Assembly (NCBI GenBank): GCA_017792345.1
Contig: CP051228.1
Span: 2,618,501 to 2,682,500, forward strand
Reading direction: 5' to 3'
Length of the DNA: 64,000 bases
Source of the DNA: Mesoflavibacter sp.
Lineage (GTDB): Bacteria > Pseudomonadota > Alphaproteobacteria > UBA8366 > Aestuariispiraceae
Shown: piece by piece, positions 25,705-46,080 of the stretch
Layout: every line of letters begins with the position of its first letter
Position numbering within the stretch: position 1 is the first letter of the stretch
Position numbers and translations under genes: made by a program
The notes under the pieces: model-generated
What the model was told of the DNA's origin: nothing
The model's database searches: none
The model's input: only the letters and a program-made list of their open reading frames with translations

Positions 25705-25875
25705 GTGAGATGTCCCAGTAAGAGTCATTGCATCCGGGCGAAAGAACGGCCGGGTCATGCCGGCCCCGGTAGCCGATATCGTGGCATCTTTTGCGGCTTC
25801 GCCATGCTACCGCAGGCCGGGTCGCACCAGCCTGTCACGATTTGGCATTTGGGCGGCGAAAATTCCCTGCCGACA

Positions 25876-25898
25876 CCGTGTTCATTACCTGAACATGG
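25876..25898. promoter_or_regulatory. Inverted repeat upstream of the flavoprotein gene
   Basis: CCGTGTTCA and TGAACATGG are separated by TTACC, a 9-bp dyad with one G/T mismatch. It lies in the only sizeable gap (25705-25939) in this stretch, 172 bases upstream of the minus-strand flavoprotein gene. No T-run follows, so an operator is more likely than a terminator. Confidence 0.4.
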
Positions 25899-25939
25899 CG
25901 TTTTGGTCAATCCATCCCGTGCTGCGCCGCAGCGAAAAT

Positions 25940-26998
25940 TCAGACGGACAGGTCCAGTTCTGCGACGGGTTCCGCCTTGTCGAACAGCGTTTTAGCGTCC
26001 GTGACCCCATCCAAATGCAGCGCGCCCGCTTCCAGACGCATGCCTGGATCGGCCGGGTGGTCGGCAATCTTGGAAAAGCCATTTGATTCGATTGCGGTTG
26101 TGAGGCCCGCTTCAAGATACAGGAAGGCCTCCTGGCGATTCCCGAGGGTGCCCTGCACCCCATTTCCGTAGACGATCTTCAGACCAAGCGACCGGGCGTG
26201 CTCCAGAAGGGCAAGGTTCTCACGCAGGCCGAGATGCTTGCACAGTTTCAGCTTCACATAGTCCATGCCGAGCTTCGCCGCGCGGTCGATATCGTCCCGG
26301 GTCCAAATCGATTCGTCCAGCATCAAGGGCACGCGGGCCACATCGCGCAAGGCCAGCATCCGGGTATCCGCTTCCGGCGCATAGGGCTGTTCCATCAACT
26401 CGATCGGGAAGTCGCCTGCTGCTTTGGCGAAGGTAAGGGCATCGGCTTCGGACATCTGCTGGTTGGCATCGACCCGGATCAGGGCGTCCTCCGGCAGAAC
26501 GGCGCTGACCGCTTCGACCCGGCGCAGGTCGTTCTGGACATCGCCGCCGATTTTCATCTTCAGCACGGTGTAGCCGTCATCCGACAGCCGGTGCGCGCGG
26601 GCGGCCGCGTCTTTTGGTTCCGTGCCGCCGCACAGGGCCACGCAGGGAATGGAGGACCCGACGGAAAATCCCAAAATCCTCTCGTCGCCCAGTTCGATGG
26701 CATCCGCCGCCGCCGCCAACCCGCTCATTGCCATCGGCGCACTCTCCCGTCTGCTGTTCAGGCAATCGGAGAGATTGAGACCGGCTGACGACGCCAAATC
26801 TTCAAAGGTCGCCCGGACGCTGGCGCCGGTCTCGAAGCTGTAGCCCGGCAAGGGGGTGATTTCGCCATGTCCCACACCGTTCCGTCCTTCCGCCCGGACA
26901 ATGAAGGTATCGAAGGTCGATACCGGGCCAAAGGCGAGCCAGTAGGGTTCTTTCAGCGGCAGGGGAAGATGGCGGATTTCGAAATGGATATTGGTCAT
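25940..26998 (-). CDS. Enolase-superfamily enzyme (muconate-lactonizing/dipeptide-epimerase-like)
   Basis: A 352-residue enolase-superfamily protein. The KMK motif is at 147-149, metal-ligand candidates are D177, E203 and D228 (in DANQQ, MEQP and LDES), and a C-terminal lysine lies in KLCKHLG near 251-254. This layout matches the MLE subgroup, which includes o-succinylbenzoate synthase, N-succinylamino-acid racemase and Ala-Glu epimerase. It ends a co-transcribed set with ATP-grasp, DUF4910, carrier-protein and adenylation genes, which suggests it epimerises or dehydrates an amino-acid-like building block. The substrate is not deducible. Confidence 0.82.
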   Translation of the reverse strand: MTNIHFEIRHLPLPLKEPYWLAFGPVSTFDTFIVRAEGRNGVGHGEITPLPGYSFETGASVRATFEDLASSAGLNLSDCLNSRRESAPMAMSGLAAAADAIELGDERILGFSVGSSIPCVALCGGTEPKDAAARAHRLSDDGYTVLKMKIGGDVQNDLRRVEAVSAVLPEDALIRVDANQQMSEADALTFAKAAGDFPIELMEQPYAPEADTRMLALRDVARVPLMLDESIWTRDDIDRAAKLGMDYVKLKLCKHLGLRENLALLEHARSLGLKIVYGNGVQGTLGNRQEAFLYLEAGLTTAIESNGFSKIADHPADPGMRLEAGALHLDGVTDAKTLFDKAEPVAELDLSV

Positions 26999-28863
26999 CG
27001 CAATCCGATCTCCAATTCAACGGCATCGGCCCCGCGCCGCCCGGCCTCTTCCGGCCCGAAAACACAGTCCCGCAGGAAGGCCGCCCGCGCGTCGGCCTTG
27101 GCGTGCCATTCCGCCAGGATAGCGGCGTCGGGGCGGTTGGCGATCTCGACGACCTTGTCGTGCCAATCCGGTTCGGCCAGATCCACCAGAAAGACGGATT
27201 TTTCCATCCGCTCCCGGATCTCCGGGATCAGCGGCGCGCCCGGATCGGCCAGGTAAATGATCGGCTTTCCGGTTCCGAAGGCCCAGCCGATGGTGCTCAA
27301 CGGGCTTTCCATGAGGATCAGATCCACACCGCCCCGGAAGAATCGGAAGTCGCCGGTCTTGATTGTTTGCACCGGCGCCGGCGCCCGCTCCATATCCCAG
27401 AAGGCATCGCCGTCGATGTAGCGGCGGGTCGAGTAGAGCTTAACCACGCTCCGGCCCCGAATCCTCGGCATGACCTTGCGGCACATCGCATTCTGCAGTT
27501 CGTAGAGGTCGCAATCCCGGGGGGCGTAGCTGAGCTTCCGGAAATTGTTCTGGCTGGCCCGAGCCAGATAGACGACGATCCGTTCCCGCGGGCGGGGCTT
27601 GAACTTGAACCGGGCCAATAGGCGTTGCATCCAGCGCAGCGGCACGCGGCGCGTCTGCTCGGCCAGACCGATCGTGTGGAAATGAATCTGCGCGGTGCGC
27701 GGTTCCTCCAGGAAAAAATCGGACGCGTTCTGCGCGCAGGCCAGATAGGCGGTGCCGTGCACCGGCTCGGCCCAAATGCGAATGGGTTCGTGATAGCGCG
27801 ACAGGCCGGCGGAAACCCCGTGTTCGACCAGGATCGTCGGGATCCCGGCGTCTTCGGCGGCGGCGGCCTGCATGCAACCCGCCAGCGATCCGATCGTATT
27901 GGTTATGATCGCCGCCGCGCCGTCTTGCGCATCGCCGCGCCGCATCTCGTCGACGCTGGCAAGCGCCGCATCCCGCGCGGATTGCCAGTACCGAGAGGCG
28001 TCCTGCAGGCGTTCGGCGGCGATGCCGGCCGGGATAGCCGGGTCGATTGTCAGGTCATGGTCGGCAAAGGCCTGTTTCAGGGCCTCCGACAGGGCCGACG
28101 CATCCGGCAGCCCCTCTTGCGGATCGCCTGCGACCGGTGCCTGCGGCCGGGGCAGGCGGGCAAGGGCGATGCCGCGATCCAGTAACGGCGGCAGCATTTC
28201 CCGGATGGTATCGTTGTCCCTTCCGACAAAGACGGTTGCCTTTGCATTGGACGGTCCGATGCGGGACGCCTTAAGAAACCTCAATTGTCGGGACAGGCGC
28301 TGGGCGCGCGAGATATCGGCGAGCGAGATGATACGGTCGCTTACCGTGCCACGGTCGAAATCAGCTTCCAGGACGGAGCGGTCGAAATCCATTCCGTCCA
28401 GCAACCGGCATTCCAGCCCTCCGGCAATGTTCCTGAAGACGGTATCGAAGGCACCGATGCCGAAATGGCCGCCACCCCCGCCGGTCAGGCCCGGAACACC
28501 GATAATGACTGTTTGTCCGCCAGAATGTGTGAAAGCCTCGACAATCGCCCGCTTGTAACAGAGCAGCCCGAGGAAATAGGCAAGCTGCTGTCCCACGAAA
28601 GGGACCAGTGCCGGCGTCGCCAAACGCTCGGCCACCGTCCGAAGGGCCGGTTCGACCGCCAGAACGGCCGCCCGGCAAGCCAAACCGATGGCATCCGACG
28701 ATTTCGCCGAAATCGCCGCATCAGCCCACTCGACCGGCTCGCCGGACCGTTCCAGACTTTCGACCACCACCGGCGACGTGCTGTACCAGCGGATCGGGCC
28801 GTCGATATGCTGGCGGGCTTCCTCGACGTGAGAAAGCGATTCCACCAGAACATGTGTCGTCAT
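26995..28863 (-). CDS. Large protein of unknown family, possibly GT-B-like
   Basis: A 622-residue soluble protein I cannot place. Features seen: a glycine-rich loop GLTGGGGGHFGIG near residues 125-137; an acidic and histidine stretch ILVEHGVSAGLSRYHEP near 347-363, as in surface-glycan transferases where a conserved EHG precedes a donor site; and GWAFGTGKPIIYLAD near 537, similar to the GKP-I stretch of GT-B donor domains. It overlaps the enolase-superfamily gene by 4 bases and follows the ATP-grasp gene after 9 bases. A glycosyl- or glycerophospho-transferase role is a guess. Confidence 0.5.
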   Translation of the reverse strand: MTTHVLVESLSHVEEARQHIDGPIRWYSTSPVVVESLERSGEPVEWADAAISAKSSDAIGLACRAAVLAVEPALRTVAERLATPALVPFVGQQLAYFLGLLCYKRAIVEAFTHSGGQTVIIGVPGLTGGGGGHFGIGAFDTVFRNIAGGLECRLLDGMDFDRSVLEADFDRGTVSDRIISLADISRAQRLSRQLRFLKASRIGPSNAKATVFVGRDNDTIREMLPPLLDRGIALARLPRPQAPVAGDPQEGLPDASALSEALKQAFADHDLTIDPAIPAGIAAERLQDASRYWQSARDAALASVDEMRRGDAQDGAAAIITNTIGSLAGCMQAAAAEDAGIPTILVEHGVSAGLSRYHEPIRIWAEPVHGTAYLACAQNASDFFLEEPRTAQIHFHTIGLAEQTRRVPLRWMQRLLARFKFKPRPRERIVVYLARASQNNFRKLSYAPRDCDLYELQNAMCRKVMPRIRGRSVVKLYSTRRYIDGDAFWDMERAPAPVQTIKTGDFRFFRGGVDLILMESPLSTIGWAFGTGKPIIYLADPGAPLIPEIRERMEKSVFLVDLAEPDWHDKVVEIANRPDAAILAEWHAKADARAAFLRDCVFGPEEAGRRGADAVELEIGLR

Positions 28864-28872
28864 CGACGGGGC

Positions 28873-29961
28873 TTACCCTTCCAGCGCGGCGATACGATCG
28901 GCGCGTTCGATGGTCAGCGGCAAGTCGACACCGCGCAGGAACACCCAGCCCGGATCGAAGTCGTAGACATCGCGCGGCATCGGCGCGTCGGCATCCTGGG
29001 CCAGTTTCACATACAGTTCCAACTGGCTGTACTTGCCGACCCGATCAAACTGGGGAGAGGTCATCGGGAAACGCCCGATATTGATCTCGGTGACATAGGG
29101 CGTCCCATCGGCATCGCATTTGAGATCCGCCTGATACAGGCCGTGAGGCTTTGTCCCAAAGGCCGAGCAGACCGCCCGCACGGCTTCGACGGTTGCGTCC
29201 ACCGGTTCGCGCTCCGCCACGGTCTGGCTGGTCTTCGGGGTAGAACCCATCATCGAAAGGGATACGTCCTCGGTGTAGTACTCCAGGCGTTCATAGACCT
29301 TGCCGACGCATAGTTCGCCGTTCTGGAACAGGACGGAGACGCAGAAGTCGCGGCCGGACAGGAACGGCGCAACCACGAAATCCTGGGGCGTCATGCCGCG
29401 CAGTTCGCACCACAGATCCATCCATTTCTGACCCTGTTCGATGGTATGCAACCAGGTGGCACCCTGACTGCCCGCGCCTTGGCGGAGACGGATCCAGTAG
29501 CGGTCGCCTTCTGCGAGGTTCAGTCCGGCGACCGCGTCCGCCAAACCTTCACGGGATTCGACCGGCAGGTTCGGAACTGTCCGGCAGCCTTGATCCTTCA
29601 GGAGGCGGTGGAAGTCGTACTTGTCCTGGACGGCATCGACCTGCGCGGGCAGCGGCAGCAGGTGGTGGCATTTGATCCGGTCGAGATGCCGCGCGAAAAC
29701 CGCCGCTTCGAAATCGCTGTTCGCGATCAGCACGTCGATCTTGTGCTTTTCGATCAGTTCCTCGTGTTTCGCGAAATAGGCGGCTTCGTTCTTTGCCTTC
29801 GGAACGATGTAAAGATGCTCCAGATCCGACTTGGCGATTTCATAGGGGTTGAAATGCGTGCCGACGATCGTGTGTTCATCGGCCGACGGCAGCAGGCGCA
29901 GACTGTTCACCAGGTTCAAGCTGCCCGAACCGCCCATGGACGTAATCAGGATATTCGCCAT
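28873..29961 (-). CDS. ATP-grasp ligase-like protein
   Basis: A 362-residue ATP-grasp protein with a pre-ATP-grasp Rossmann domain (MANILITSMGGSGSLNLVNSL, resembling carbamoyl-phosphate synthase-like proteins) and a catalytic part with VDAVQDKYDFHRLLK, the glycine-rich RQGAGSQGATWL and YVTEINIGRF with metal-ligand Glu/Asn. Such enzymes activate a carboxylate as acyl phosphate and join it to an amine or thiol. It abuts the DUF4910 gene exactly and sits in the acyl-activation cassette, so amide formation on a sugar or amino-acid substituent is plausible. Confidence 0.82.
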   Translation of the reverse strand: MANILITSMGGSGSLNLVNSLRLLPSADEHTIVGTHFNPYEIAKSDLEHLYIVPKAKNEAAYFAKHEELIEKHKIDVLIANSDFEAAVFARHLDRIKCHHLLPLPAQVDAVQDKYDFHRLLKDQGCRTVPNLPVESREGLADAVAGLNLAEGDRYWIRLRQGAGSQGATWLHTIEQGQKWMDLWCELRGMTPQDFVVAPFLSGRDFCVSVLFQNGELCVGKVYERLEYYTEDVSLSMMGSTPKTSQTVAEREPVDATVEAVRAVCSAFGTKPHGLYQADLKCDADGTPYVTEINIGRFPMTSPQFDRVGKYSQLELYVKLAQDADAPMPRDVYDFDPGWVFLRGVDLPLTIERADRIAALEG

Positions 29962-32180: not shown

Positions 32181-32435
32181 TCAGGCCGCCTTCAAACGCT
32201 CGACTTCGATGCAGAGGCCGTCAACGGAGACCATCCGCTCTTCGTCCAGATCGGAAATGTCGATGGGAATTCCGATCGCGTCTTCCAGGGATCCGATGAA
32301 ATCGAGATAACCAAACGAATCCAAAACCCCGCTCTCAAGCAGGTTCGCCTTTCCGTCGACATCGACCGGGGTGCTGCCCATGCCGCGCAATGTGTCGTCC
32401 AAAACTTTTCGAATCGTGATTTCGATATCGTTCAT
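32181..32435 (-). CDS. Free-standing acyl/peptidyl carrier protein
   Basis: An 84-residue acidic carrier protein. The 4'-phosphopantetheine attachment serine is S40 in ESGVLDSFGYLDFI, which fits the (L/V)DS signature; the helical pattern and length are typical. It lies 48 bases downstream of the adenylation enzyme and 10 bases before the formyltransferase. It is not part of a fatty-acid cluster, so it should be loaded by the neighbouring adenylation enzyme. A phosphopantetheinyl transferase gene is not in the window. Confidence 0.9.
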   Translation of the reverse strand: MNDIEITIRKVLDDTLRGMGSTPVDVDGKANLLESGVLDSFGYLDFIGSLEDAIGIPIDISDLDEERMVSVDGLCIEVERLKAA

Positions 32436-32483
32436 GCTCTGATTTTCCCGGTGTAGGCGTGAGTGTACGGAAAGCCCGCCCGT

Positions 32484-33938
32484 TTACTCCGACTGCATCC
32501 GGGACAACAAGGCCCCGGCGTCGATTTTGTCGTTCGCATTGCGCGGCAGTCGGTCAAGGACGCGGATATCCTGGGGTATCGCATAGGCGGGAAGGGTGCC
32601 GGTCATGCCGTTCCGCAAGGCTTCGACATTTCCGTCGGCGCTTTCCACGAAACCGACCAGCCGGCCGTCATGAAAGACGACACAGGCCGCGATGGCCCCG
32701 GCGTCGCGCAGGGCGGCCTCGACGGCACTCAGTTCCAATCGATAGCCGTTGATCTTGATCTGTCGGTCTATCCGAGAGGTGAAGTAGATATCCGGGCCGC
32801 GCCGCGCGACCCAATCCCCCGTCCGGTAGGCGGCCAGGGTTTGCCCGGCAATTTGCCTGGACACGAAACGGTCGGCTGTCAGGGCGGAATCCTGCCAGTA
32901 TCCCCGCGCCACCTGCGGCCCAGCGATAACAATTTCGCCCTCGTCGCTGTCCGGCCCGTCTTCCAGAAGGATATGCATGCCCGGGATCGGGTCGCCGATG
33001 GCCACATTCTCTCGGCAATGGTCCCGATAGGTATCGGCATCCAGGCGCAGCAGGGTCATCGACACCGTCGCTTCGGTCGGGCCGTAGGTGTTGTAGACCG
33101 TCAGATCCGGGCGCGCTGCGAAGATCGCATCCAGATGCTCCCGCAACAGCGGTTCCCCGCAGAAGGTCATCAGGCGCAGGCTGGACAATGTCTCGCCCGT
33201 CATCTTGCCGCCGCGCCGCATCAGGTCGACGACGCTGGGGACGGAATTCCAGATGGTGAGACCCAGCTTCCGAATTGCGCTTGCTGGCACTAGCCGGTCC
33301 CGCCGATCGTTCAGCGGAACGAGTGTCGCACCGGAACACAGCGCGCCATAGACATCCAGAACGCTGAGGTCGAAACCGAGATTGGGATGCTGGGACCATC
33401 GGTCTTGCGGCCCTGCCGCGATCTCCGACCGCGCCCAATCGGTGTAATGCGTCAGTGCTCCGCGCCCGACCATCACCCCTTTCGGCTCGCCGGTCGATCC
33501 GGAGGTGAACATGACATAGGCTAGGTCATGCGCTGCGGCCGGCTCAGCGAGCCTCTCTTGCGGAAGACCTTCGGACGGATCGATGACCGGCACGCCGGGG
33601 GGATCGATATCCGAGGCGGCGCCGACAATCACAGCAGGCGCGAACCGATGCAATTGCCGCCGCTGCAAGTCGGCGGGGTGATCCAGGTTCACCGGGGAGT
33701 AATAGCCGCCCGCATGCAGCGCCGCGAACATCGCGGCATAGGCCTCGGCATTGCGCGGCAGTCGAACCAGAACCCGGCGTTCCCGATCCGCCGGGACGGC
33801 GGCTGCAATGGCAGCGGCCAAACGGCGGACGAGATCGGCCAGTTCGGCATAGCTCGTGACTCGGGCCCCATCCTCGACGGCAGGGTGATCGGGATGCCGG
33901 TTTGCCGCTTCGAACAGCAGGTCTACAGGATCTTTCAC
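32484..33938 (-). CDS. DltA/NRPS-like amino-acid adenylation enzyme
   Basis: A stand-alone ANL-superfamily enzyme of 484 residues that should activate an acid as its adenylate and load it on a carrier protein. Core motifs: FTSGSTGEPKGV (A3) at 144-155, FDLSVLD (A4) at 189-195, whose Asp fits alpha-amino recognition as in DltA and NRPS A domains, YGPTE (A5) at 285-289, YRTGD and RQIKINGYRLEL (A7/A8), and NANDKID (A10) with the catalytic lysine near the end. The start is a GTG at 33938 overlapping the AAC(3)-like stop (GTGA); the longer open frame upstream is inside that gene. Confidence 0.9.
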   Translation of the reverse strand: MKDPVDLLFEAANRHPDHPAVEDGARVTSYAELADLVRRLAAAIAAAVPADRERRVLVRLPRNAEAYAAMFAALHAGGYYSPVNLDHPADLQRRQLHRFAPAVIVGAASDIDPPGVPVIDPSEGLPQERLAEPAAAHDLAYVMFTSGSTGEPKGVMVGRGALTHYTDWARSEIAAGPQDRWSQHPNLGFDLSVLDVYGALCSGATLVPLNDRRDRLVPASAIRKLGLTIWNSVPSVVDLMRRGGKMTGETLSSLRLMTFCGEPLLREHLDAIFAARPDLTVYNTYGPTEATVSMTLLRLDADTYRDHCRENVAIGDPIPGMHILLEDGPDSDEGEIVIAGPQVARGYWQDSALTADRFVSRQIAGQTLAAYRTGDWVARRGPDIYFTSRIDRQIKINGYRLELSAVEAALRDAGAIAACVVFHDGRLVGFVESADGNVEALRNGMTGTLPAYAIPQDIRVLDRLPRNANDKIDAGALLSRMQSE

Positions 33939-34711
33939 GGCGTCGCTTCCTGTCGGGTCAACGCATAGGGGTCTTGGTGCAACAAGCTGCGCACGGTCTC
34001 GTCGACCGCCGCCAATGGGGCGCGAAGGCTGTCGCGGGACGCATCGATCGGGGCCGGGACACAATCCGGATGGACTTTCAGGGCGGCTTCCGCGCGGCTC
34101 AGATCGTTTTTCACGCGGCTGTCCCTGGCACGACCATAGTACCGGCAGTGGACGTCAGTGACGGTTCCGGACCGAAGAATGCGCCGCGGCACGTCGATCC
34201 AACTCCGGTAAGGCACGCCGACCATGGCTTCGACATGGTGCATATAGGTGGCGCCTTCCTGCGCCGTGCATCCCAGCAGGAGAAGATGAAAACCCTCCCC
34301 CAGCATCCAATCGAAGGATGCACCGGGGCCGAGGGAAAGCAGGGGATTGCAGTCCAACAAGCCCGGCGCCTTCGGTCCGATGGCGCAATGACCATGCATC
34401 GGACAGTCCGTCCGGACCGCATCGGGACGCTGTCTGGCATATTCCGACAGGGCGCCCATGCCGTGCGACGGAGTGGTCGCCGCATCGTAGAGAGCCTCTG
34501 AAGTGAGCGGCAGGGTGTAGGTCGGAAAAATCAGGGTCCCGCCGGGGCCGACAGCATCCCGAAGGGCCTGATAAACCGTTTCAACCCCGCCCGGGATGCG
34601 GCCGAAGCTGAGCAGCCTGGAATGGACCGCCAGATCCATGCCGGGCCGCAGACCGAGCGCGTCGAGATTGGCCTTCAACGCGGCCAGATTTTGGTCCGGT
34701 GAGGGTCTCAC
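33935..34711 (-). CDS. AAC(3)-family N-acyltransferase
   Basis: A 258-residue Antibiotic_NAT-family protein. The opening LGLRPGMDLAVHSRLLSFGRIPGGVETVYQAL and GTLIFPTYT match aminoglycoside 3-N-acetyltransferases. The usual HPxxS catalytic-site pattern is changed: the stretch after R100 reads CPMHGHCAIG, placing Cys103 where the family has His, with His106 and His108 nearby. Located between the adenylation enzyme and the class III aminotransferase, it may N-acylate the newly formed sugar amine, possibly from a carrier-bound donor. Drug resistance is unlikely in this context. The start is GTG overlapping the aminotransferase stop. Confidence 0.83.
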   Translation of the reverse strand: MRPSPDQNLAALKANLDALGLRPGMDLAVHSRLLSFGRIPGGVETVYQALRDAVGPGGTLIFPTYTLPLTSEALYDAATTPSHGMGALSEYARQRPDAVRTDCPMHGHCAIGPKAPGLLDCNPLLSLGPGASFDWMLGEGFHLLLLGCTAQEGATYMHHVEAMVGVPYRSWIDVPRRILRSGTVTDVHCRYYGRARDSRVKNDLSRAEAALKVHPDCVPAPIDASRDSLRAPLAAVDETVRSLLHQDPYALTRQEATP

Positions 34712-36018
34712 GGTTTGCGGAATACCGGCTGAACCCGTTCGCCGCGCAGCTTGCCGTCGAGGTCGCCCGACGCAAGTCCGTCGGCAATCGTGGCGAAGGC
34801 GACGTCATAGGCCTCCAGCGTCCGTTCGACGTCCTGCATCGTGTGGGCGAAAGACGGCGCATGCCAGCCGGCCGCCAGAACGCCCCCGGCGATCCCTTCC
34901 TGCTGAAACACGCTTTTCATCAGCATGCCGTCCGCGCCGTCTCCCTTGAACCACATGACATGCCGCGCGGCGTATCCGTCCAGGCCGATATTGCCGCTCA
35001 ATCCATGCGCCGCGATTTGCCGGGACATGCCGTCCATCAGCGCCTGGCCAATGGTGGAGACATGCTCCAGGACAGGTTCCGTCTCAAGCAGCGACAGGAC
35101 GGTCTGCGCCGCCGTGATGCCCAGCAGGTCGCCGCCGAAGGTGAAGGAAAAGAACACGTCGTTGAAGACATCCATGATGTCGGCCCGGCCCAGCACGACC
35201 GAAATCGGGACACCGTTGCCCAGCGCCTTGCCGAAACAGGCGAGGTCCGGCTGAACCCCGAAGGCGCCGTAGGCGCCCTGCAGATGAATGCGGAACCCCG
35301 TCCAGCATTCGTCGAAGATCAGGACGACGCCGTGCTTGTCGGCCAGGGCGCGAACCCCTTCCAGGTACCCCGGCTTGGGGGGGATGATGCCCATCGGTTC
35401 CATGATGATGGCCGCGACCTGGCCCGAATGCTGTTCCAGCAAATTGGAAAGCGCGTCGAGGTCGTTGTATGCGAAGGGCGTTGTCAAATCGCGGACCGCT
35501 TGCGGTACCCCGGCATGGCGCAGCGTCGTCCCGATGAACCAGTCCTGCCAGCCATGGTAGCCGCAGCACAGAATGCGGTCCCGCCCGGTAAAGGCCCGCG
35601 CCGCGCGAACCGCGCCGGCCGTCGCGTCGGAGCCGTTCTTGCCGAAGCGAACACGTTCGGCATAGGGGAACCAATCGATCAAACGTTCGGCCAGGGCCAG
35701 TTCCACCGTGGTAGGCAGGGAAAAGGCGATCCCGTCCTTCAATCGCTTGGTCACCGCCTCCGTCACGGCGGGGTGATTATGGCCCAGCAACAGCGGGCCG
35801 AGCGCCATCGGCCAATCGATAAAGGCATTTCCGTCGGCATCCCAGATCGTTCCGCCGTCCGCCCTTTCGGCGAAGACAGGCGAGACGCCGCGCGGAAACT
35901 GGGTCCAGCCTTTGGAAAAAGTCTGGGTCTGCGAGGGAATGGCGCCTTCCGCCTTTTTCAGGAGCGCGAGGGAAGCATTCAGCGGCGGCGTGCGCCGATT
36001 GTCACCGAGTTTCGTCAT
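34708..36018 (-). CDS. Class III aminotransferase (GSA-aminotransferase-like)
   Basis: A PLP enzyme of 436 residues. GSDATAGAVRAARAFTG, YHGWQDW, the FDE of the PLP-ring contact near 235-237, and the Schiff-base lysine K264 in CFGKALGNGVP are clear. The fold class is that of glutamate-1-semialdehyde aminomutase, but such enzymes also occur with SpsE/SpsF-type genes. Here it is the only aminotransferase in the PseB operon, which lacks a PseC-like enzyme, so amination of a keto-sugar intermediate is the best guess. It overlaps both neighbours by 4 bases. Confidence 0.88.
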   Translation of the reverse strand: MTKLGDNRRTPPLNASLALLKKAEGAIPSQTQTFSKGWTQFPRGVSPVFAERADGGTIWDADGNAFIDWPMALGPLLLGHNHPAVTEAVTKRLKDGIAFSLPTTVELALAERLIDWFPYAERVRFGKNGSDATAGAVRAARAFTGRDRILCCGYHGWQDWFIGTTLRHAGVPQAVRDLTTPFAYNDLDALSNLLEQHSGQVAAIIMEPMGIIPPKPGYLEGVRALADKHGVVLIFDECWTGFRIHLQGAYGAFGVQPDLACFGKALGNGVPISVVLGRADIMDVFNDVFFSFTFGGDLLGITAAQTVLSLLETEPVLEHVSTIGQALMDGMSRQIAAHGLSGNIGLDGYAARHVMWFKGDGADGMLMKSVFQQEGIAGGVLAAGWHAPSFAHTMQDVERTLEAYDVAFATIADGLASGDLDGKLRGERVQPVFRKP

Positions 36019-36800
36019 TTTGAGGGTTCGATCCCGTCCTTCGCGAGCGACTTGAAATAGCCTTCGTCTCGCAGGGTTGACTGGTTTGCCAAAAGATCCG
36101 CCGGTTGCGACTGAAAGGCCGACAGGACCTGCTGCCAACCGGCCGTGGCTGCACCGTCCTTGCCGAGGGTTTCCGCGATACCCCGGGCGAGCCGATAATC
36201 CAATCCATCGTCGACCGTCCAACGCAGTGCCGACAGGTCCGCGGGGGCCGCTAGATTGGCGCTGGAGAGGCGGCTGCCGCCCTCGAACGCGCAGTTCTTC
36301 CACATCCAGGGCACGACATGCTCTCGTTCGGACGATAGCGTGGCTTCCTCATCGGCCGCCATCAGCGTCTCCTTGGTGAAGACGGAGGCATCCAGACCAT
36401 CCGGCCAGGTCTCGGGCTTCACATTGGTCGCGTAGTCGAGTTTCTCACGGCTTCGCAGCGACAACAGCGCGTCCAATACGGCGGGGTCGATGAATGGGCA
36501 ATCGCCGGTCGCGCGTAGGACGATGTCGGCCTGGGTCGCCTCGCAGGCAAGACGGTAGCGCGACAGGACATCCTCCTCCGATCCCCGAACGACCTGATAG
36601 CCGGCATCCGCAACGACGGCGGCGAGCGCGTCATTGGCGGGGCCGTCGCCCGTTGCCAGAGCGACCTGGTCGATACCGGCGGCCCGGCCGATCCGTTCCA
36701 GGATCAGACAGATCATCGGCCGTCCGGCCAATTCGAAGAGAACCTTGCCCGGCAACCGCGTGGAGCCGATCCGGGCCTGGACGATCGCGACCGTCTTCAT
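36015..36800 (-). CDS. SpsF-like cytidylyltransferase
   Basis: A 261-residue nucleotidyltransferase. AIVQARIGSTRLPGKVL is the CTP-binding opening shared with SpsF, KdsB and NeuA proteins; RATGDCPFIDP carries the metal Asp. It probably activates the product of the NeuB-type synthase encoded two genes upstream as a CMP-sugar. It is clearly different from the second cytidylyltransferase at 45.4 kb. Starts and stops overlap by 4 bases on both sides. Confidence 0.88.
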   Translation of the reverse strand: MKTVAIVQARIGSTRLPGKVLFELAGRPMICLILERIGRAAGIDQVALATGDGPANDALAAVVADAGYQVVRGSEEDVLSRYRLACEATQADIVLRATGDCPFIDPAVLDALLSLRSREKLDYATNVKPETWPDGLDASVFTKETLMAADEEATLSSEREHVVPWMWKNCAFEGGSRLSSANLAAPADLSALRWTVDDGLDYRLARGIAETLGKDGAATAGWQQVLSAFQSQPADLLANQSTLRDEGYFKSLAKDGIEPSK

Positions 36801-37471
36801 GCTGATTTCCGTCCGAACAGATCGAATTTCACGGCGTCGCAAAGGGCGGTCAGCAGCCGCCGGTTCGCGCGGAATCCCTGACCGAACCGGGACGAGCCGG
36901 ATTGCCGGGGTAAGACGGTAACCGGGACCGTATCGAAGGCTTCGCCCCGCCGCAGGGCGGCCAGCGCCAGTTCCGTGCCGACGGACCGGCCTGTCCCGAA
37001 ACGTCCGACGTCGCGATACAAGGACACGTCATATCCTTTCAGCCCGCACAGGATGTCGCCGACACCGAAACGGAGCCGCGTGTAGACGTTGAACAGCCAT
37101 TCCCCGAAACGGGCGGCCTCCGGCCGTTGGCCGAGCACGAGACGGACATTCCCCGACGCCATGGCCGCGATCACCGCCTTGAGCCCGGCGAGTTCGAACT
37201 GGCCGTCAGCGTCATAGGTCACGACGCGGCGCAGGCCGAGCCGGCCTGCCGCTTCAAACCCCGCCTCCAGCGCGCCCTCATAGCCGCGATTGGGCGACAG
37301 GCGGATGACTGTGGCCCCGGCGCCTTCCGCCAGTTCGGCAGTCCCGTCCGTCGACCCGTCATCCACCACAAGCGGCAATCCGCATTGGGAGACGTTGCGC
37401 ACGACCTCCGCAATCGTTTCCGCTTCGTTGAAGGCAGGCATCAGAATGGCGGTGTCGCCGGGCCCGGTCAT
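36797..37471 (-). CDS. Family 2 glycosyltransferase
   Basis: A 224-residue GT-A enzyme. ILMPAFNEAETIAEVV, VVDDGSTDGT and TYDADGQF give the nucleotide-sugar binding site and the DxD-like metal site. It has no membrane segments, and its short length resembles DPM1-like enzymes. It is coupled to the SpsF-like gene and separated by one base from the synthase gene. It probably transfers one residue of the glycan made by this operon. Confidence 0.85.
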   Translation of the reverse strand: MTGPGDTAILMPAFNEAETIAEVVRNVSQCGLPLVVDDGSTDGTAELAEGAGATVIRLSPNRGYEGALEAGFEAAGRLGLRRVVTYDADGQFELAGLKAVIAAMASGNVRLVLGQRPEAARFGEWLFNVYTRLRFGVGDILCGLKGYDVSLYRDVGRFGTGRSVGTELALAALRRGEAFDTVPVTVLPRQSGSSRFGQGFRANRRLLTALCDAVKFDLFGRKSA

Positions 37472-37472: not shown

Positions 37473-38555
37473 TCAGCGCAGATCTTCCATCGTCACGATG
37501 TCGCCCTCGTCGATGTCACGCGCCAGGGCTTTGCCGATCAGGTCGGGCATCCGATAGGGCGGCAGGCCGTTCACCGGGCAGGGGCGCAGCGGTATCAGGT
37601 CCGCTTCCGTCAGTGTCGCGCCGGCCGAAAGCGCGCGGGTCGTCCGGATCGCCCGCCGTTGCAGCACCACGGTTTCCTTTTCATTGTCCATGACCCGCTT
37701 CTCGGCCGGGCCGAGGGCCGCTTCCAACTCACGCGTGCGGTCCACCATGTCGCGCCAGGTCGTCGGATCCATCGAGAATTTATGGTCGGGGCCTTCGCGG
37801 TCGATACTGTCGGTAAAATGCTTCTCAACCGCGCGTGCGCCCAGCGCGACGGCGCCCAGAACCGTGGCATGGCCCGGCGTGTGATCGGACAGGCCCAGCA
37901 CAACATCCGGGAAGGCAGCGGCATAGGTCTTGAGCACGTTCAGGGCGATATGATGAAAGTTCTCGAGTGACGCCGTGTAGTTGGTATTGCACTGCATGAC
38001 GCACAACTGATCGGTATGGGCACGGGCGACCGAAACGGCGGCCTCGACCTCGTCCATATTCGCGGCGCCGGTCGCGATGAAGAAGGGTTTGTTGTCCTTC
38101 GCCAGTTCGGCAATAGAGGCATGCCAGGTGATGTCGCCCGACCCCAGCTTCCAGGCGGCGACGTACTTCGACAATTCCTTCAACATCGCCATATCGTAAG
38201 GCGCGGTGAAATAGTCGATCCCCGCTTCGTCGCAGGCCGCCTTCAATTCCTGGGTCCATTGCATCGGCAAAGAGGCCGCGTCGTAGACATCAAAGACGCT
38301 CTTCTTCCAGGCCGATTGATGGGATTGCTGACCGCCCAACGCGCGGAAGCCGTAGTCGGACACGATGGTTGCGGCCTGGAAATTCTGGAACTTCGCGGCA
38401 TTCGCACCGGCTTCGGCACAAAGATGGATCAGATCCTTGGCGCGGGACAGGTCCCCGTCGTGGTTGGCCGCGATGTCCGCGATGAAGTATGTGGGATGGT
38501 CGTCGCCGACTTTGAAACGGCCGGTATCCAAGGTGACCCGTTCAGTCTCGCTCAT
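37473..38555 (-). CDS. NeuB-family nonulosonic acid synthase (first)
   Basis: A 360-residue PEP-dependent sugar-acid synthase. FIADIAANHDGDLSRAKDLI is the family opening, then AKFQNF, GSGDITW, a metal-site histidine region QCNTNYTAS, SDHTPG and EKHFTD; a C-terminal SAF domain (LIPLRPCPVNGL onward) is present. The long insertion SHQSAWKKSVFDVYD sets it apart from the shorter LegI-like paralogue at 57.4 kb. It should condense a six-carbon sugar with PEP. The start at 38555 overlaps the RmlD-like stop (ATGA). Confidence 0.9.
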   Translation of the reverse strand: MSETERVTLDTGRFKVGDDHPTYFIADIAANHDGDLSRAKDLIHLCAEAGANAAKFQNFQAATIVSDYGFRALGGQQSHQSAWKKSVFDVYDAASLPMQWTQELKAACDEAGIDYFTAPYDMAMLKELSKYVAAWKLGSGDITWHASIAELAKDNKPFFIATGAANMDEVEAAVSVARAHTDQLCVMQCNTNYTASLENFHHIALNVLKTYAAAFPDVVLGLSDHTPGHATVLGAVALGARAVEKHFTDSIDREGPDHKFSMDPTTWRDMVDRTRELEAALGPAEKRVMDNEKETVVLQRRAIRTTRALSAGATLTEADLIPLRPCPVNGLPPYRMPDLIGKALARDIDEGDIVTMEDLR

Positions 38556-39415
38556 CTTGCTTCCCCTTGCTCTTCCGCCGCATGGGCGTCGATTTCCTGT
38601 GCCAGCGTCGGCAGGTCCAACCCGGCGGCGGTTTCCAGTCTCGCCACATCCATCCGCATGTCCTTGGGACGCGGGGCCCGGCCGGGCAGGTCGGCCGATA
38701 CCCCTTCCGTGGCATTCGTCAGCGGCAGGTTCAATGCCGCCGCCAGGCGGCGCGCAAACCAGGCTTTGCTGGCGCCGTCCCGACTGCCGAGATTGTATGT
38801 TCCGCGAATGCCGTCGGCGACCAGATTTCGCGTGATGCCGGCCAAGGTCTCCATGCGCAGCGGCGAGAACAAACTGTCGGTGAACAGCGTCATCGCGCGG
38901 CCTTCGCGGGCACCCTGGGTCAGCCAATCCGACAGGCTGATGCGCCCAGCGGTGCGGGACCGCCCGAAGAAGTTGACGCGAAGTACCAGCGAATTCTGAT
39001 GGGCCGACGCGGCCAGTTCACCGGCCAGTTTCGTGCGCCCGTAGACGTTGATCGGGTCGGTCCGATCTTCTTCATAGGGGCCGGCGCTACCCGGGTAGAC
39101 CTGATCGGTGGACAGGTGAACCAGGCAGGTCCGCGACGGCAGGATTTCGGCCAGGGCGGCGGCAGGACCTCGGTTCAGTGCGTCCGCCCGCTCCGGATCC
39201 CGTTCGCATGCGTCGACATCCGTCAGGGCGACGGCGTTGATCACCGTGTCCGGTTGCTCCGCCTGGATCAAACCCGCCATGGCGTCCTTGTCCAGAACAT
39301 CGACCTGGTGCGGCCCCTTCGTCCGGCCGACAACCATTGCCGGCCCGTCCGCCGCGAAGGCGTCTTGCAGATAGGGGCCCAGCAGGCCGGTCCCGCCCAG
39401 GATCAGGGTCTTCAT
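38552..39415 (-). CDS. RmlD-like NAD(P)-dependent sugar reductase
   Basis: A 287-residue short-chain dehydrogenase. LILGGTGLLGPYLQ is the nucleotide-binding motif, and STDQVY followed by INVYGRTKLAGE gives the Ser and Tyr-x3-Lys catalytic residues as in dTDP-4-dehydrorhamnose reductase. In this context it probably reduces a 4-keto sugar made by PseB or a later intermediate. The start shares one base with the methyltransferase stop. Confidence 0.86.
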   Translation of the reverse strand: MKTLILGGTGLLGPYLQDAFAADGPAMVVGRTKGPHQVDVLDKDAMAGLIQAEQPDTVINAVALTDVDACERDPERADALNRGPAAALAEILPSRTCLVHLSTDQVYPGSAGPYEEDRTDPINVYGRTKLAGELAASAHQNSLVLRVNFFGRSRTAGRISLSDWLTQGAREGRAMTLFTDSLFSPLRMETLAGITRNLVADGIRGTYNLGSRDGASKAWFARRLAAALNLPLTNATEGVSADLPGRAPRPKDMRMDVARLETAAGLDLPTLAQEIDAHAAEEQGEAR

Positions 39416-40455
39416 CAATCCGCGAAACGCATCAGCAGATGGACTTCGGATGCGGTCTTGCGCGTGTCTAACGCCAGTTGGGCCTCGTCCAGGGCCGGCA
39501 CGATCATCTCCCGCCAGTAACCCGCGAGGGCGGCCGTTTCCGGATTGCGCTCCAACTCCACCGCGACGGACCGATAGAAATCCACCATGTCCGTTCCGAA
39601 CCACCATTCCGACAGGCGGTTAAGGCCGAACTCCCGGCACATCCAGTCGATCGAGCCTTCGGTATAGAGATGCGTATGGCCCGCCGACAACTGGCGCTGA
39701 AAGACCTCCGGGAAGGCACATTCGATCATCGTGCTGGGGCTGAACAGCGGCACGGAAATATAGAAGTAGCGTACATTGGGATTGCTGCGCAGCGCGGCGA
39801 CGATGTCGCGCGGATTCTGGACGTGTTCCAGAACACCGATCATGCTGACCACATCCGCTTCGACGGTCCCGGCGATTTCTGCGGCCGCATCCAATGCGTG
39901 TGCCTTAACCGCATCCTCCGAAATCATTGCCTGGGCAAGGGCGACCTGCACATCGGATACTTCATATCCGTGAGAATGCGGCCAGCCGACGTCCCGCATC
40001 GCGGCGACGAAATAGCCGGATCCGGCCCCCAGATCGGTGAAGCGCAGGGTCTCCGGCGTCTCTCCCGCCTCGGACAGCGCGTCGCGCAGGAATTCGGCTT
40101 TCGGCACATAGATGTCGCGAACCCGGGCGCGATAGGCGTCCTTGTCGGCGGATGAGTAGGTTTTTGCGTAACTGGCGCCGCCATCTTGAACATACATCGC
40201 CTCGCAAAAGGCATCGGTATCTTCGTGGGCGCCGTTCAAATGACTGCAGCGGCCGCACAGAACGTATTCGATGTCTTGCTTGGTGAAACGCGGCCCTTCC
40301 AGAGGGGCGTCACAGCATTTGCAGGCCGTTCGGCGGGGCTGTTGGGTATAGACGGCGCCAATGCGACGGCCCTCGTTCAGAAGGCCGTCATTCTCTGCAA
40401 AAAATCCCTTCTTGTGGGCCAGAAGGGCGCCGGAGCTTTTCCCGTAACGGATCAT
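39415..40455 (-). CDS. SAM-dependent methyltransferase with N-terminal zinc-finger motif
   Basis: A 346-residue protein. A CKCCDAP and LCGRC pair (about residues 45-70) forms a zinc-ribbon-like head, as in sugar C-methyltransferases. FTDLGAGSGYFVAAM is the SAM motif, and MIGVLEHVQNP follows. The C-terminal part is unlike the large C-methyltransferase domain. A keto-sugar acceptor is plausible since it lies directly after PseB with a 4-base overlap. Confidence 0.85.
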   Translation of the reverse strand: MIRYGKSSGALLAHKKGFFAENDGLLNEGRRIGAVYTQQPRRTACKCCDAPLEGPRFTKQDIEYVLCGRCSHLNGAHEDTDAFCEAMYVQDGGASYAKTYSSADKDAYRARVRDIYVPKAEFLRDALSEAGETPETLRFTDLGAGSGYFVAAMRDVGWPHSHGYEVSDVQVALAQAMISEDAVKAHALDAAAEIAGTVEADVVSMIGVLEHVQNPRDIVAALRSNPNVRYFYISVPLFSPSTMIECAFPEVFQRQLSAGHTHLYTEGSIDWMCREFGLNRLSEWWFGTDMVDFYRSVAVELERNPETAALAGYWREMIVPALDEAQLALDTRKTASEVHLLMRFAD

Positions 40456-41501
40456 TCGGCCGGCTCCGCCGTTGCCAGAAGCGCATGCAGGCCCTCGGCA
40501 TCCAGCCACCAATCGTTCAAATCGGATCGGTATTGAAATCCTTCTTCGACCGAGGTTCCGGCCTTGTTGCGGATCGTCGGCTTCAAGGTTTCGAACTTGG
40601 GAACATTGGTCGGCTTGATCACATAGCAGTTCTCGAACTCCAAGGTGTTCGGCACGTCGTCCACCGTGATCATCGTCTCGTGCAGCTTCTCCCCCGGCCG
40701 CAGGCCGACGATCTTGGTCGGATAGCCGGGCGCCAGCGCATCCACCAGCGCCGGGATCGTCATGCTGGGGATCTTCGGTACAAAGATTTCGCCGCCCTGC
40801 ATTTCGCCCAGGCACATCAGAACGAAATCCACGCCTTGTTCGATGGTGATCCAGAAACGGCTCATCCGCTCGTCGGTGATCGGCAGGGCGTCCACCTTGC
40901 GGCGGACCATGCCGCGGAAAAGCGGGATGATGCTGCCGCGGCTGCCCAGAACATTGCCATAGCGCACGACACCGAACTTCGTTTTGGCCTGTCCGGCGAG
41001 ATTGTTCCCCGCAACGAACAGTTTGTCGGAGCACAGCTTGGTCGCGCCATACAGATTGACCGGATTGGCGGCTTTGTCGGTGGACAGGGCGACCACGCGT
41101 TCGACGCCGCAATCGATCGACACATTCACGACATTTTCCGCGCCGATTACATTCGTCTTGATGGTTTCGAACGGATTGTACTCGGCAATCGGCACATGTT
41201 TCATCGCGGCGGCATGGACGACGATATCGATCCCCTGCATGGCGCGCTGCAGGCGTTCGGCATCGCGCACGTCGCCGATGAAATAGCGCAGGCACTTATG
41301 ATCCAGCGGCGAAAACTCCTGCGCCATTTCCGCTTGCTTCTGTTCGTCGCGGCTGTAAATGACCAGGCGCGCGGGCTCGAACTTCTCGAGAACGCGGCGA
41401 ATGAAGGCCTTGCCGAATGAACCGGTCCCGCCGGTGACGAGAACCCCTTTGCCGTTGAGGTCGATTGAGTTGGGGCTCGTGAAATCGGCCATCGCTGTCA
41501 T
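40452..41501 (-). CDS. pseB: UDP-GlcNAc 4,6-dehydratase (inverting)
   Basis: A 349-residue PseB/FlaA1-type short-chain dehydrogenase. VLVTGGTGSFGKAFIRRVL, YSRDEQKQAEMA, HAAAMKHVPIAEYNPFE, and STDKAANPVNLYGATKL with the modified catalytic Lys/Tyr set are diagnostic of enzymes making UDP-4-keto-6-deoxy-L-AltNAc, the pseudaminic acid precursor. GGAG lies 9 bases before the ATG at 41501. It is the first gene of a 15-kb operon that has no recognisable PseC, PseG or PseH. Confidence 0.93.
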   Translation of the reverse strand: MTAMADFTSPNSIDLNGKGVLVTGGTGSFGKAFIRRVLEKFEPARLVIYSRDEQKQAEMAQEFSPLDHKCLRYFIGDVRDAERLQRAMQGIDIVVHAAAMKHVPIAEYNPFETIKTNVIGAENVVNVSIDCGVERVVALSTDKAANPVNLYGATKLCSDKLFVAGNNLAGQAKTKFGVVRYGNVLGSRGSIIPLFRGMVRRKVDALPITDERMSRFWITIEQGVDFVLMCLGEMQGGEIFVPKIPSMTIPALVDALAPGYPTKIVGLRPGEKLHETMITVDDVPNTLEFENCYVIKPTNVPKFETLKPTIRNKAGTSVEEGFQYRSDLNDWWLDAEGLHALLATAEPAE

Positions 41502-41587
41502 GGTTACATGCTCCGATTATGCTACTGTCCGGAAATGGCGAGCAGGGTCGATCCGATAAGCCCGCACATCAAGTTGGAACGCGTTTG
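41502..41587. promoter_or_regulatory. Divergent promoter region, pseB / aldo-keto reductase
   Basis: 86 bases between the divergent starts of pseB (-) and the aldo/keto reductase gene (+). The promoter for the long minus-strand operon must lie here or within the start of the reductase gene. No consensus pair is clear by eye. Confidence 0.4.
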
Positions 41588-42454
41588 ATGAGTTTCTCTG
41601 AAATCGTCCTGGGCACAGTTCAGTTCGGTATGCCTTACGGACTGAACCGCACCCTTATGACCGAAGCGGCGGTGTTTCGCATCCTCGATCGTGCCTGGGA
41701 AATGGGCATTCGCAGGTTGGACACGGCGCGCGGATACGGCTTGGCGGAAGAGCGCCTGGGCGCCTGGCTCGCGCGGCATCCGGATCGAGACCCGGAGATC
41801 GTGACCAAGTTTCCCGACGGAGACGCCGCTTCCGTCACAAAATCCGTCGATACAAGCCTAGCCCTTCTGGGGCGGGATCGCGTCCACGGTTTGCTTGCCC
41901 ACGATCCCGCGACCCTGACGCGGCCCGGCCTGATCGACGCCCTCGCGACCTATCGCGATCGGGTACACGCTTTCGGTGCCTCCGTTTACGATGTCGCCGC
42001 CGCTCGTCGGACGGCCGAACTGATCGACGGCGCGGTCCTGATCCAGGCCCCGGCCAATCCATACGACACGCGTTTCGCCGATAGCGGCTTCCCGGACGCG
42101 TCGACCGATACGCGGGTCGTTTATCGCAGCATCTACCTTCAGGGCATTATCGGCCTGTCGCCGGAAAGGCTGCCTGCTCATCTGCAAGCCCTGCGTCCGG
42201 CCCAGGAAATCCTGCATCGCGCGGCGGCCGAAATGGCCATCGGCCCTCATGCCTTCGCCATCGCCTATGTTCGCCACCGATTGGGGCTGCGCGACCTGGT
42301 CTTCGGTATCGCCGAACCGGGGCATCTCGACGCTTTGGCGGAAGGCCTGGCCGTGCCGGCGCCGTCCAGCGCGATTGAAACCGCAATCCGGCAGGCTCTG
42401 ATCTCGGTTCCGGATGCGGCCATCGACCCGAGGGTCTGGCCCAAAACCCAATAG
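41588..42454 (+). CDS. Aldo/keto reductase family protein
   Basis: A 288-residue TIM-barrel aldo/keto reductase. The tetrad is recognisable: Asp and Tyr in LDTARGYGLAEE, Lys in IVTKFP and His in LLAHDP. The C-terminal NADPH-binding end (LVFGIAEPGHLDALAE) is typical. An ATG at 41588 is used; the frame is open a little further but without a match to the family. It lies alone on the plus strand between two glycan operons. Homologues occur in nonulosonic-acid loci, but the substrate is unknown. Confidence 0.85.
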   Translation: MSFSEIVLGTVQFGMPYGLNRTLMTEAAVFRILDRAWEMGIRRLDTARGYGLAEERLGAWLARHPDRDPEIVTKFPDGDAASVTKSVDTSLALLGRDRVHGLLAHDPATLTRPGLIDALATYRDRVHAFGASVYDVAAARRTAELIDGAVLIQAPANPYDTRFADSGFPDASTDTRVVYRSIYLQGIIGLSPERLPAHLQALRPAQEILHRAAAEMAIGPHAFAIAYVRHRLGLRDLVFGIAEPGHLDALAEGLAVPAPSSAIETAIRQALISVPDAAIDPRVWPKTQ

Positions 42455-45367: not shown

Positions 45368-46080
45368 GCCTTACTCCAGGGTAACTCGGTGCCGGCCCAG
45401 CCGATGACCTGTCCGGTCAAATCCTTCGCGGCCAGGGCTTCCGCTATGTTCCAATCGTCCGGTGTGTCGATATCGATCGAACCGACCCAATCCGTAATGA
45501 CCGCGCCCAACCGTTCCGGAAACAAAGTGCCGTCTCGCCGCAGGACTTCGGTCCGGATCGCGTAGACCGTTCCGTTGGGCACCAGAACTGGCTCCTGGCC
45601 GGTATTCAACGCGGTCAAATTGGCGGTCTCCGGATAGTGATAGGCGGCGGGAACGGTGTTCCGGCGCATGCCGACGACCGCATCGAGCGTGCCATCCTGG
45701 CGCAACAGGCGGATGGCATCCGCCACGGCCTGGGCGGGCCGGAACGGAGAGGTCGCCTGGATAACGACGGTCAAGTCCGGCTTGGCCGCCCCGGTTTCAT
45801 GGACGTCCAATGCGTGCAGTATCGTATCCAGGGTCGAGGCGCTGTCGCTGGCGAGTTCGGCCGGGCGCAGAAACGGCGCATTCCAGCCCAATGTCTCGCC
45901 GGCGGATCGAATGTCGGGCGCATCGGTGGTCAGTAGAACCGGGAAGCCGAGCGCGCTTTCCGTCAGGCAGCGCGCCGTTCTTTCAATCAGCGTTGCCCCG
46001 TTGAGCGGGATCATGTGCTTGCCGGGCAGCCGCTTTGATCCGCCCCGGGCGGGAACGATGAATAGACCGGTATCGCTCAA
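45364..46080 (-). CDS. CMP-nonulosonic acid cytidylyltransferase, LegF/NeuA-like
   Basis: A 238-residue enzyme. FIVPARGGSKRLPGKHM is the CTP-binding P-loop-like motif of NeuA/PseF/LegF; QATSPFR and the C-terminal DIDTPDDW fit the family. With PtmE on one side and HisH/HisF on the other it most likely makes CMP-legionaminic acid or its amidino form. The start is TTG at 46080, 3 bases after the HisH stop, with GGAAG upstream; no better ATG is available. NeuA and PseF remain possible identities. Confidence 0.87.
   Translation of the reverse strand: MSDTGLFIVPARGGSKRLPGKHMIPLNGATLIERTARCLTESALGFPVLLTTDAPDIRSAGETLGWNAPFLRPAELASDSASTLDTILHALDVHETGAAKPDLTVVIQATSPFRPAQAVADAIRLLRQDGTLDAVVGMRRNTVPAAYHYPETANLTALNTGQEPVLVPNGTVYAIRTEVLRRDGTLFPERLGAVITDWVGSIDIDTPDDWNIAEALAAKDLTGQVIGWAGTELPWSKA

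Follow-up and report, generated by a model that had tools for sequence, protein, structure and literature searches.

The 64,000-nt stretch analysed here, hereafter the window, covers positions 2,618,501–2,682,500 of contig CP051228.1, the single contig of a 4.9 Mb genome, and contains a minus-strand operon in which genes for a nonulosonic acid (NulO) sugar are joined by genes for acyl transfer. The operon begins with pseB and runs through genes for a methyltransferase, an RmlD-like reductase, a NeuB-type synthase, a family 2 glycosyltransferase (GT2), an SpsF-like cytidylyltransferase and a class III aminotransferase to an AAC(3)-like acyltransferase, an adenylation enzyme, a free carrier protein, a formyltransferase, a DUF4910 protein, an ATP-grasp protein, a 622-aa protein and further genes (Table 1). 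Most neighbouring genes overlap by 4 nt or lie no more than 50 nt apart. The SpsF–aminotransferase, aminotransferase–AAC(3) and AAC(3)–adenylation enzyme junctions each overlap by 4 nt, the carrier gene follows after a gap of 48 nt and the formyltransferase gene after another 10 nt. Families were assigned with Pfam and NCBIfam profiles, and folds by matching AlphaFold models to the Protein Data Bank (PDB); at the level of sequence, the family assignments of the operon proteins are firm. They bear out the original prediction for this stretch, which had placed an adenylation enzyme, a free carrier with Ser40, an AAC(3)-like acyltransferase and a class III aminotransferase together in one operon behind PseB, a NeuB-type synthase and an SpsF-like cytidylyltransferase. 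The predicted lack of PseH also held, as neither PseH nor any other GNAT was found among the operon genes scanned with these profiles. The cassette itself, drawn at 32181–36018, was too short and missed the formyltransferase and DUF4910 genes that continue it.

Comparison with other genomes divides these genes into two units. Three relatives from the window's order (L027–L029) share the sugar-acid scaffold, arranged as PtmE, (ABC), PseB, RmlD, NeuB, GT2, SpsF and aminotransferase, then DUF4910 and the 622-aa protein, with AsnS at the end where the contig is long enough. Identity to the window proteins is 70–74% for NeuB and 70–75% for the aminotransferase. All three relatives lack AAC(3), the adenylation domain, the carrier and the formyltransferase; a methyltransferase lies between the aminotransferase and DUF4910 instead. 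L027 and L028 additionally carry a GNAT after DUF4910 (PseH-like at 41 bits in L027) that the window does not have. In many NulO loci the SpsF and aminotransferase genes adjoin or form one frame of ~690 aa, and this adjacency or fusion is kept in L027–L034. Homologues were also found in L030–L037. Among eight NulO loci that have the aminotransferase but no AAC(3), DUF4910 is present in 0/8. A weak carrier-like open reading frame was seen in L032 (8138–8395), a NulO locus without AAC(3), just before SpsF and the class III aminotransferase.

The adenylation domain is confined to the window's genome among 43 genomes of the order, the 42 others having none. The closest relatives of AAC(3) and the adenylation domain come from metagenome-assembled genomes (MAGs) of Magnetococcales and from Paramagnetospirillum marisnigri (41–52%), and from an Actinomycetota MAG (33–43%). 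Since the scaffold occurs without the module and the module occurs elsewhere, the four genes of the original prediction are two units: SpsF–aminotransferase, which belongs to the scaffold, and an acyl module of AAC(3), adenylation enzyme, carrier and DUF4910. Horizontal insertion was also sought in base composition, where no signal emerged: the GC content of the module and its GC content at third codon positions match the flanks except in the carrier gene. The case for module exchange is therefore made by gene order alone.

Outside the window, 11 loci were picked by AAC(3) similarity alone (L012, L013, L044–L049, L052, L053 and L060), a small sample of which four came from a profile scan with one peptide pattern and the rest from genome draws. 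DUF4910 accompanies AAC(3) in 9/11 of these loci, a carrier in 8/11 and a loading enzyme in 9/11 (an adenylation domain or AMP-ligase in seven, FkbH in two), and NulO or Maf genes (NeuB, PseB or Maf) lie near AAC(3) in 5/11. A class III aminotransferase is near AAC(3) in only one locus, or two if a weak match is counted. This distribution, together with a scaffold that occurs without the module, speaks against the claim that the aminotransferase supplies the amine to be acylated. In one draw of 398 genomes, DUF4910 was present in 6/7 other AAC(3)-positive genomes versus 23/390 without AAC(3) (Fisher p = 6e-7, an optimistic value given that Magnetococcales are over-represented in the draw). The short distances between AAC(3) and DUF4910, 0.3–4.5 kb in five of these genomes, are a stronger argument than the p value. 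In P. marisnigri, DUF4910, AAC(3) and the adenylation domain stand next to a Maf gene.

FkbH proteins put glyceryl groups on carriers. A plasmid of Maritalea myrionectae (L060) encodes PseB, an AAC(3)–FkbH fusion (7944–10403) and a MaoC–SDR protein with a terminal carrier domain, followed by DUF4910 and a NeuB that is 53% identical to that of the window. The other FkbH locus (L049:7372–16669) contains FkbH, a carrier, AAC(3), a methyltransferase, DUF4910, flgK-like and flgL-like genes and then PseB. This gene set fits a methylated glyceroyl group and makes the locus a candidate source of a methylglyceroyl NulO outside Campylobacter. As FkbH is the loading enzyme in two loci and is once fused to AAC(3), the acyl donor of AAC(3) is probably a carrier-bound group.

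Table 1. Genes of the window's NulO operon and the divergent neighbour of pseB, with the profile matches on which their assignment is based
Feature	Coordinates	Strand	Evidence and remarks
PseB, UDP-GlcNAc 4,6-dehydratase (inverting), first operon gene	40452..41501	-	TIGR03589 492 bits, cut-off 408; Polysacc_synt_2 334 bits
S-adenosylmethionine (SAM) methyltransferase, 346 aa	39415..40455	-	PF13489 60 bits
RmlD-like reductase, 287 aa, scaffold	38552..39415	-	PF04321 145 bits; kept in L027–L029
NeuB-type nonulosonate synthase, 360 aa, scaffold	37473..38555	-	PF03102 221 bits
Family 2 glycosyltransferase, 224 aa, scaffold	36797..37471	-	PF00535 59 bits; kept in L027–L029
SpsF-like cytidylyltransferase, 261 aa, scaffold	36015..36800	-	PF02348 (CTP_transf_3) 81.6 bits
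Class III (glutamate-1-semialdehyde type) aminotransferase, 436 aa, scaffold	34708..36018	-	PF00202 180 bits
AAC(3)/Antibiotic_NAT N-acyltransferase, 258 aa, GTG start	33935..34711	-	PF02522 114 bits
Stand-alone amino-acid adenylation enzyme, 484 aa, GTG start	32484..33938	-	PF00501 230 bits and AMP-binding_C; TIGR01733 310 bits
Free carrier protein, 84 aa, phosphopantetheine Ser40	32181..32435	-	PF00550 21.5 bits, cut-off 20.8
Formyltransferase, 299 aa	31271..32170	-	Formyl_trans_N 64 bits, Formyl_trans_C 53 bits
DUF4910/DUF2172/HTH_47 protein (Cj1295 family, aminopeptidase-like), 439 aa	29962..31281	-	PF16254 312 bits
ATP-grasp protein, right after the DUF4910 gene	28873..29961	-	ATP-grasp_4 19 bits (below cut-off); carbamoyl-phosphate-synthase-like 56 bits
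622-aa protein, scaffold, putative GT-B fold	26995..28863	-	no Pfam/NCBIfam match; model pLDDT 64
Aldo/keto reductase, divergent from pseB	41519..42454	+	KidO-like 45 bits; 39% identical in L029, same arrangement there

The adenylation enzyme is of the amino-acid type. Its match to TIGR01733 falls slightly below the cut-off of 317.4 bits, and DltA models rank second, their equivalog cut-offs not being reached (250.7 versus 476 and 246.7 versus 559.85 bits). In the pocket region, its best matches include solved D-alanine ligases as well as a prolyl ligase. When reference enzymes and homologues were aligned with it to locate the ten pocket residues, the code read DLLNTCTVSK, which is identical in two Magnetococcales loci and in P. 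marisnigri and is not known to fit any textbook code. A third Magnetococcales locus reads DLMNSCTVSK, Mesorhizobium plasmids DITNNCTISK and the DltA structure 3e7w DLMTMCTVA, with Asp190, Leu191, Cys260, Thr284 and Val292 common to the window enzyme and DltA. The prolyl ligase, aligned in the same way as a control, returned DLLYLALVC, the textbook proline code and hence the expected outcome. Because the alpha-amine-binding Asp190 and the catalytic Lys471 are retained in these alignments, the predicted substrate is an alpha-amino acid. The pocket Cys shared with DltA suggests a small or D-configured residue. Ser40 of the carrier lies in LLESGVLDSFGY, within the PP-binding domain, and the nearest NCBIfam model is DltC, at 26.6 bits against a cut-off of 68. 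A carrier gene follows the adenylation-domain gene in L044, L046, L052 and the Mesorhizobium loci as well. The sequences argue strongly that the adenylation enzyme would load an amino acid on the free carrier.

The AAC(3) model, with a predicted local distance difference test (pLDDT) score of 88, matches FrbF (3sma) best, followed by YokD and AAC(3) enzymes. TM-scores (template modelling) to AAC(3)-type structures are 0.72–0.82, so that the fold agrees with the superfamily domain. The protein keeps H30 and the His-x-Glu pair, and its fold and catalytic His/Glu pattern are common to the resistance enzymes, FrbF and YokD. Nevertheless, it lies below every curated aminoglycoside-resistance cut-off (best 82.3 versus 270 bits) and, unlike the resistance enzymes, has a glycan context in the genome. 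The DUF4910 protein matches the putative peptidase 3k9t along its length (377 bits). Around residues 188–191, DUF4910 proteins near AAC(3) read NNELSG where 3k9t reads NDNLSG, so that a probable metal ligand is altered.

The PDB matches of the formyltransferase comprise Met-tRNA formyltransferase (91 bits), GDP-4-amino-sugar formyltransferase (59 bits), ArnA (59 bits) and PseJ (32 bits). PseJ, the formyltransferase of a pseudaminic pathway (PDB 6ci2/6ci4), acts on a NulO or its precursor, as we propose for the window enzyme, although the match to it is weak and Met-tRNA formyltransferases score higher. N-formyl NulOs are documented (PMC3210612), and N-formyl legionaminic acid is found in Halorubrum (PMC6137143). 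Given these sugars and the weak PseJ match, the formyltransferase is a reasonable stand-in for PseH and, by analogy, may N-formylate a sugar amine.

The operon differs from the canonical pseudaminic acid pathway. PseB is present; PseC and PseG, like PseH, were not found among the scanned operon genes, the nearest PseC candidate being the DegT aminotransferase at 17492 (239 of 423.5 bits). The synthase is not of PseI type: it scores 257 bits with NnaB and 218.5 bits with PseI (cut-off 340), reaching neither equivalog cut-off, and 136 bits with SpsE (1vli).

From the computed families, motifs, pocket code, gene order and recurrent association, we infer carrier loading, transfer from the carrier to AAC(3), the acceptor and the roles of DUF4910 and the formyltransferase. 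We propose, with a probability of about 0.58, that an exchangeable acyl-decoration module inside a conserved NulO operon aminoacylates a NulO amine via the carrier, the target being the amine exposed by DUF4910. PseB, by its family, would yield a 4-keto sugar, an aminotransferase would aminate it and the formyltransferase, instead of PseH, would cap that other amine. NeuB would then condense the sugar with phosphoenolpyruvate and the SpsF-like enzyme activate it with CMP, as their families indicate. By analogy with Cj1295 of Campylobacter jejuni, DUF4910 may expose, or help to expose or exchange, the N5 amine by removing or replacing its acetyl group. The adenylation enzyme very likely charges the carrier phosphopantetheine with an activated alpha-amino acid that is probably small or D-configured. 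AAC(3) would then take the aminoacyl group off the carrier and attach it to an amine, either of the NulO or of its precursor, as its fusion to FkbH and its genomic associations suggest. The acylated amine would most likely be the N5 amine exposed by DUF4910 rather than that made by the class III aminotransferase.

The original prediction had the class III aminotransferase make the amine that AAC(3) acylates, with AAC(3), adenylation enzyme and carrier replacing PseH. The direct adjacency of the aminotransferase, AAC(3) and adenylation genes with their 4-nt overlaps fits this route, as does the lack of PseH in an operon whose counterparts in L027 and L028 carry a GNAT in its place. We consider it unlikely, however, as AAC(3) modules elsewhere accompany DUF4910 and not this aminotransferase, whose homologues in turn occupy eight loci with neither AAC(3) nor DUF4910; moreover, the adjoining formyltransferase could replace PseH equally well, PseJ being the precedent. 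What stands of that prediction is carrier-dependent acylation of a sugar amine with an amino acid as the likely donor, in line with the pocket code and the recurrent grouping of AAC(3), carrier, loader and DUF4910. The target of the module might also be a different sugar in the same surface polysaccharide, such as a 2,3-diamino sugar, the genes for which (17492–21672) lie downstream in the same gene run. Mesorhizobium plasmids (L058:11998–14394 and L059:9992–12394) show a comparable setting: their exopolysaccharide locus, which has no NulO genes, includes a related adenylation domain (42–43% identical), a carrier and a GNAT. Yet a WlbB-like acetyltransferase gene already adjoins the 2,3-diamino sugar genes, the DUF4910 family is tied to NulO modification in C. 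jejuni, and five of the 11 AAC(3) loci have NeuB, PseB or Maf nearby, which leaves such a target rather improbable.

Several Magnetococcales homologues have no nearby glycan genes, as would be expected if the adenylation enzyme and carrier served an unrelated small metabolite or peptide and merely neighboured the glycan genes. In the window, however, the genes overlap mid-operon, the association with DUF4910 recurs and condensation or thioesterase domains were not detected among the proteins scanned; we regard this explanation as very unlikely. The DltA-like and DltC-like sequences and pocket could point to a Dlt-like system, in which a membrane transferase receives D-Ala from the carrier and attaches it to a surface polymer as an ester, AAC(3) being a bystander. 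With the curated DltA and DltC cut-offs not reached, DltB-like or DltD-like proteins not detected among the scanned window proteins, and AAC(3) and the adenylation domain travelling together in other taxa, this is scarcely credible.

Several observations weigh against aminoacylation of a NulO amine by the module. In the DNA examined, a carrier is missing from three of the 11 AAC(3) loci, that of P. marisnigri among them. At several Magnetococcales loci, NulO genes are absent up to a distance of about 10 kb. The sample of eleven loci is small, one class contributes several of them, and an association is no proof of biochemistry. Most DUF4910 proteins have Asn at the presumed bridging Asp of 3k9t, and their hydrolase activity is uncertain for this reason. 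In C. jejuni, the AAC(3)-like Cj1296/7 was out of frame in the Cj1295 study while the group was still made, and a 2026 paper counts Cj1296–Cj1310 as not involved (PMC13317340).

The window's module is reminiscent of the C. jejuni flagellar locus. There, Cj1295 is needed for 7-acetamido-5-(2,3-di-O-methylglyceroyl)amino pseudaminic acid and was proposed to cleave off the N5 acetyl (PMC3068675), a strain with an fkbH (cj1302) pseudogene lacks the di-O-methylglyceroyl glycan (PMC7099621), and the carriers AcpP2 and Cj1308 occur together with the FkbH gene (PMC6338021, PMC7099621). Both systems have a DUF4910 protein, tied in C. jejuni to a NulO whose N5 bears an unusual acyl group, and an AAC(3)-like protein (Cj1296/7) and carriers are encoded in the C. 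jejuni locus. The arrangement expected of a Cj1295-type N5 exchange, DUF4910 beside acyl genes, is found in the window, as the PF16254 match and the association statistics attest. However, the C. jejuni acyl group is glyceric acid and its locus has an FkbH gene, whereas the window has genes for an amino-acid adenylation enzyme plus a formyltransferase, and the flagellin locus of its genome lies elsewhere. The likeness was drawn from published descriptions; Cj1307 is presumably an amino-acid-activating enzyme. By analogy, the window's module is the Campylobacter acyl-swapping theme with a different loading enzyme, and the putative amino-acid version is new.

Further systems share single aspects of the module. 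Mutants of the Pseudomonas syringae viosamine island (vioA, vioB, vioS, vioR, acp) support carrier-linked acylation of a flagellar sugar amine (PMC3927599). As proposed for the window, a surface glycan there receives a carrier-linked acyl group on one of its sugar amines, but the sugar is viosamine and no NulO, and 3-hydroxybutyryl is provided via β-ketoacyl synthase III and a reductase without adenylation. VioB is a dTDP-viosamine acetyltransferase by annotation. Aeromonas flagellar islands contain, as far as their description goes, pse genes together with either a class III aminotransferase (group I) or an acyl carrier protein and an AMP-dependent synthetase between them (group II), so that these features fall in separate groups; luxE/luxC genes are of fatty-acid type, and the islands are described there without mention of AAC(3) or DUF4910 (PMC7874193). 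In view of the C. jejuni N5-glyceroyl pseudaminic acid (PMC3068675) and of what is described for these Aeromonas islands, the earlier statement that no described NulO pathway has this composition went too far. DltA and DltC likewise form a stand-alone adenylation enzyme and a free carrier, with pocket Asp, Leu, Cys, Thr and Val in common. Apart from the family cut-offs and the DltB and DltD proteins discussed above, the Dlt system differs in forming an ester on teichoic acid, whereas an amide on a sugar is proposed here.

The genome has three NeuB genes: the operon copy, one at 57399–58460 in the window and one at 4.60 Mb by Maf and flagellin. Flagellin was rejected as the first-choice target, as Maf, flagellin and the third NeuB are clustered 1.9 Mb away with sugar genes of their own. 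Because the genome has this separate flagellin/Maf/NeuB locus, the sugar more likely ends up in a surface polysaccharide, although it could also be supplied to Maf. The window also encodes an ABC transporter, glycosyltransferases and a UDP-GlcNAc 3-dehydrogenase homologue. The flagellin locus (L064, contig positions 4588500–4608000) contains, besides Maf and the third NeuB, a WbuX amidotransferase and a weak formyltransferase-like protein. A second NulO set in the window (44312–46080, 46084–47456, 53221–55713 and 57399–60830) encodes NeuB2, NeuC-like, LegC-like and PtmE-/NeuA-like proteins; accompanied by WbuX, HisF and HisH homologues, its sequences suggest a legionaminic-type sugar bearing an acetamidino group. 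At 17492–21672, the UDP-GlcNAc 3-dehydrogenase homologue, a WlbB-like acetyltransferase and a DegT aminotransferase make up a 2,3-diamino sugar pathway that is conserved in L069. Later in the operon, 24166–26998 encodes an enolase-superfamily protein (dipeptide epimerase/o-succinylbenzoate synthase-like) and a flavodoxin-fold protein, neither of which has a match in L027–L029. The 622-aa protein was modelled with low confidence; the model looks like NeuC and GT-B enzymes, and a GT-B fold is no more than a guess.

We tentatively hypothesise that interchangeable modules rewrite the N-acyl groups of NulOs, with AAC(3) and DUF4910 as the fixed part and a variable loader, FkbH for glyceric acid or nonribosomal peptide synthetase (NRPS)-type enzymes for amino acids. 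The window would represent the amino-acid version, in which AAC(3) would take an aminoacyl-carrier and not acetyl-CoA. The N-acyl diversity of nonulosonic acids shapes the recognition of flagella and O-antigens, and to our knowledge the routes to unusual NulO acyl groups (glyceroyl, aminoacyl, hydroxybutyryl) are mostly unexplained. What the Cj1295/DUF4910 family does has been unsettled since 2010, and the module yields a concrete prediction that can be addressed with four soluble proteins. If the proposal is true, an AAC(3)-fold enzyme would gain a biosynthetic role with a carrier-bound donor.

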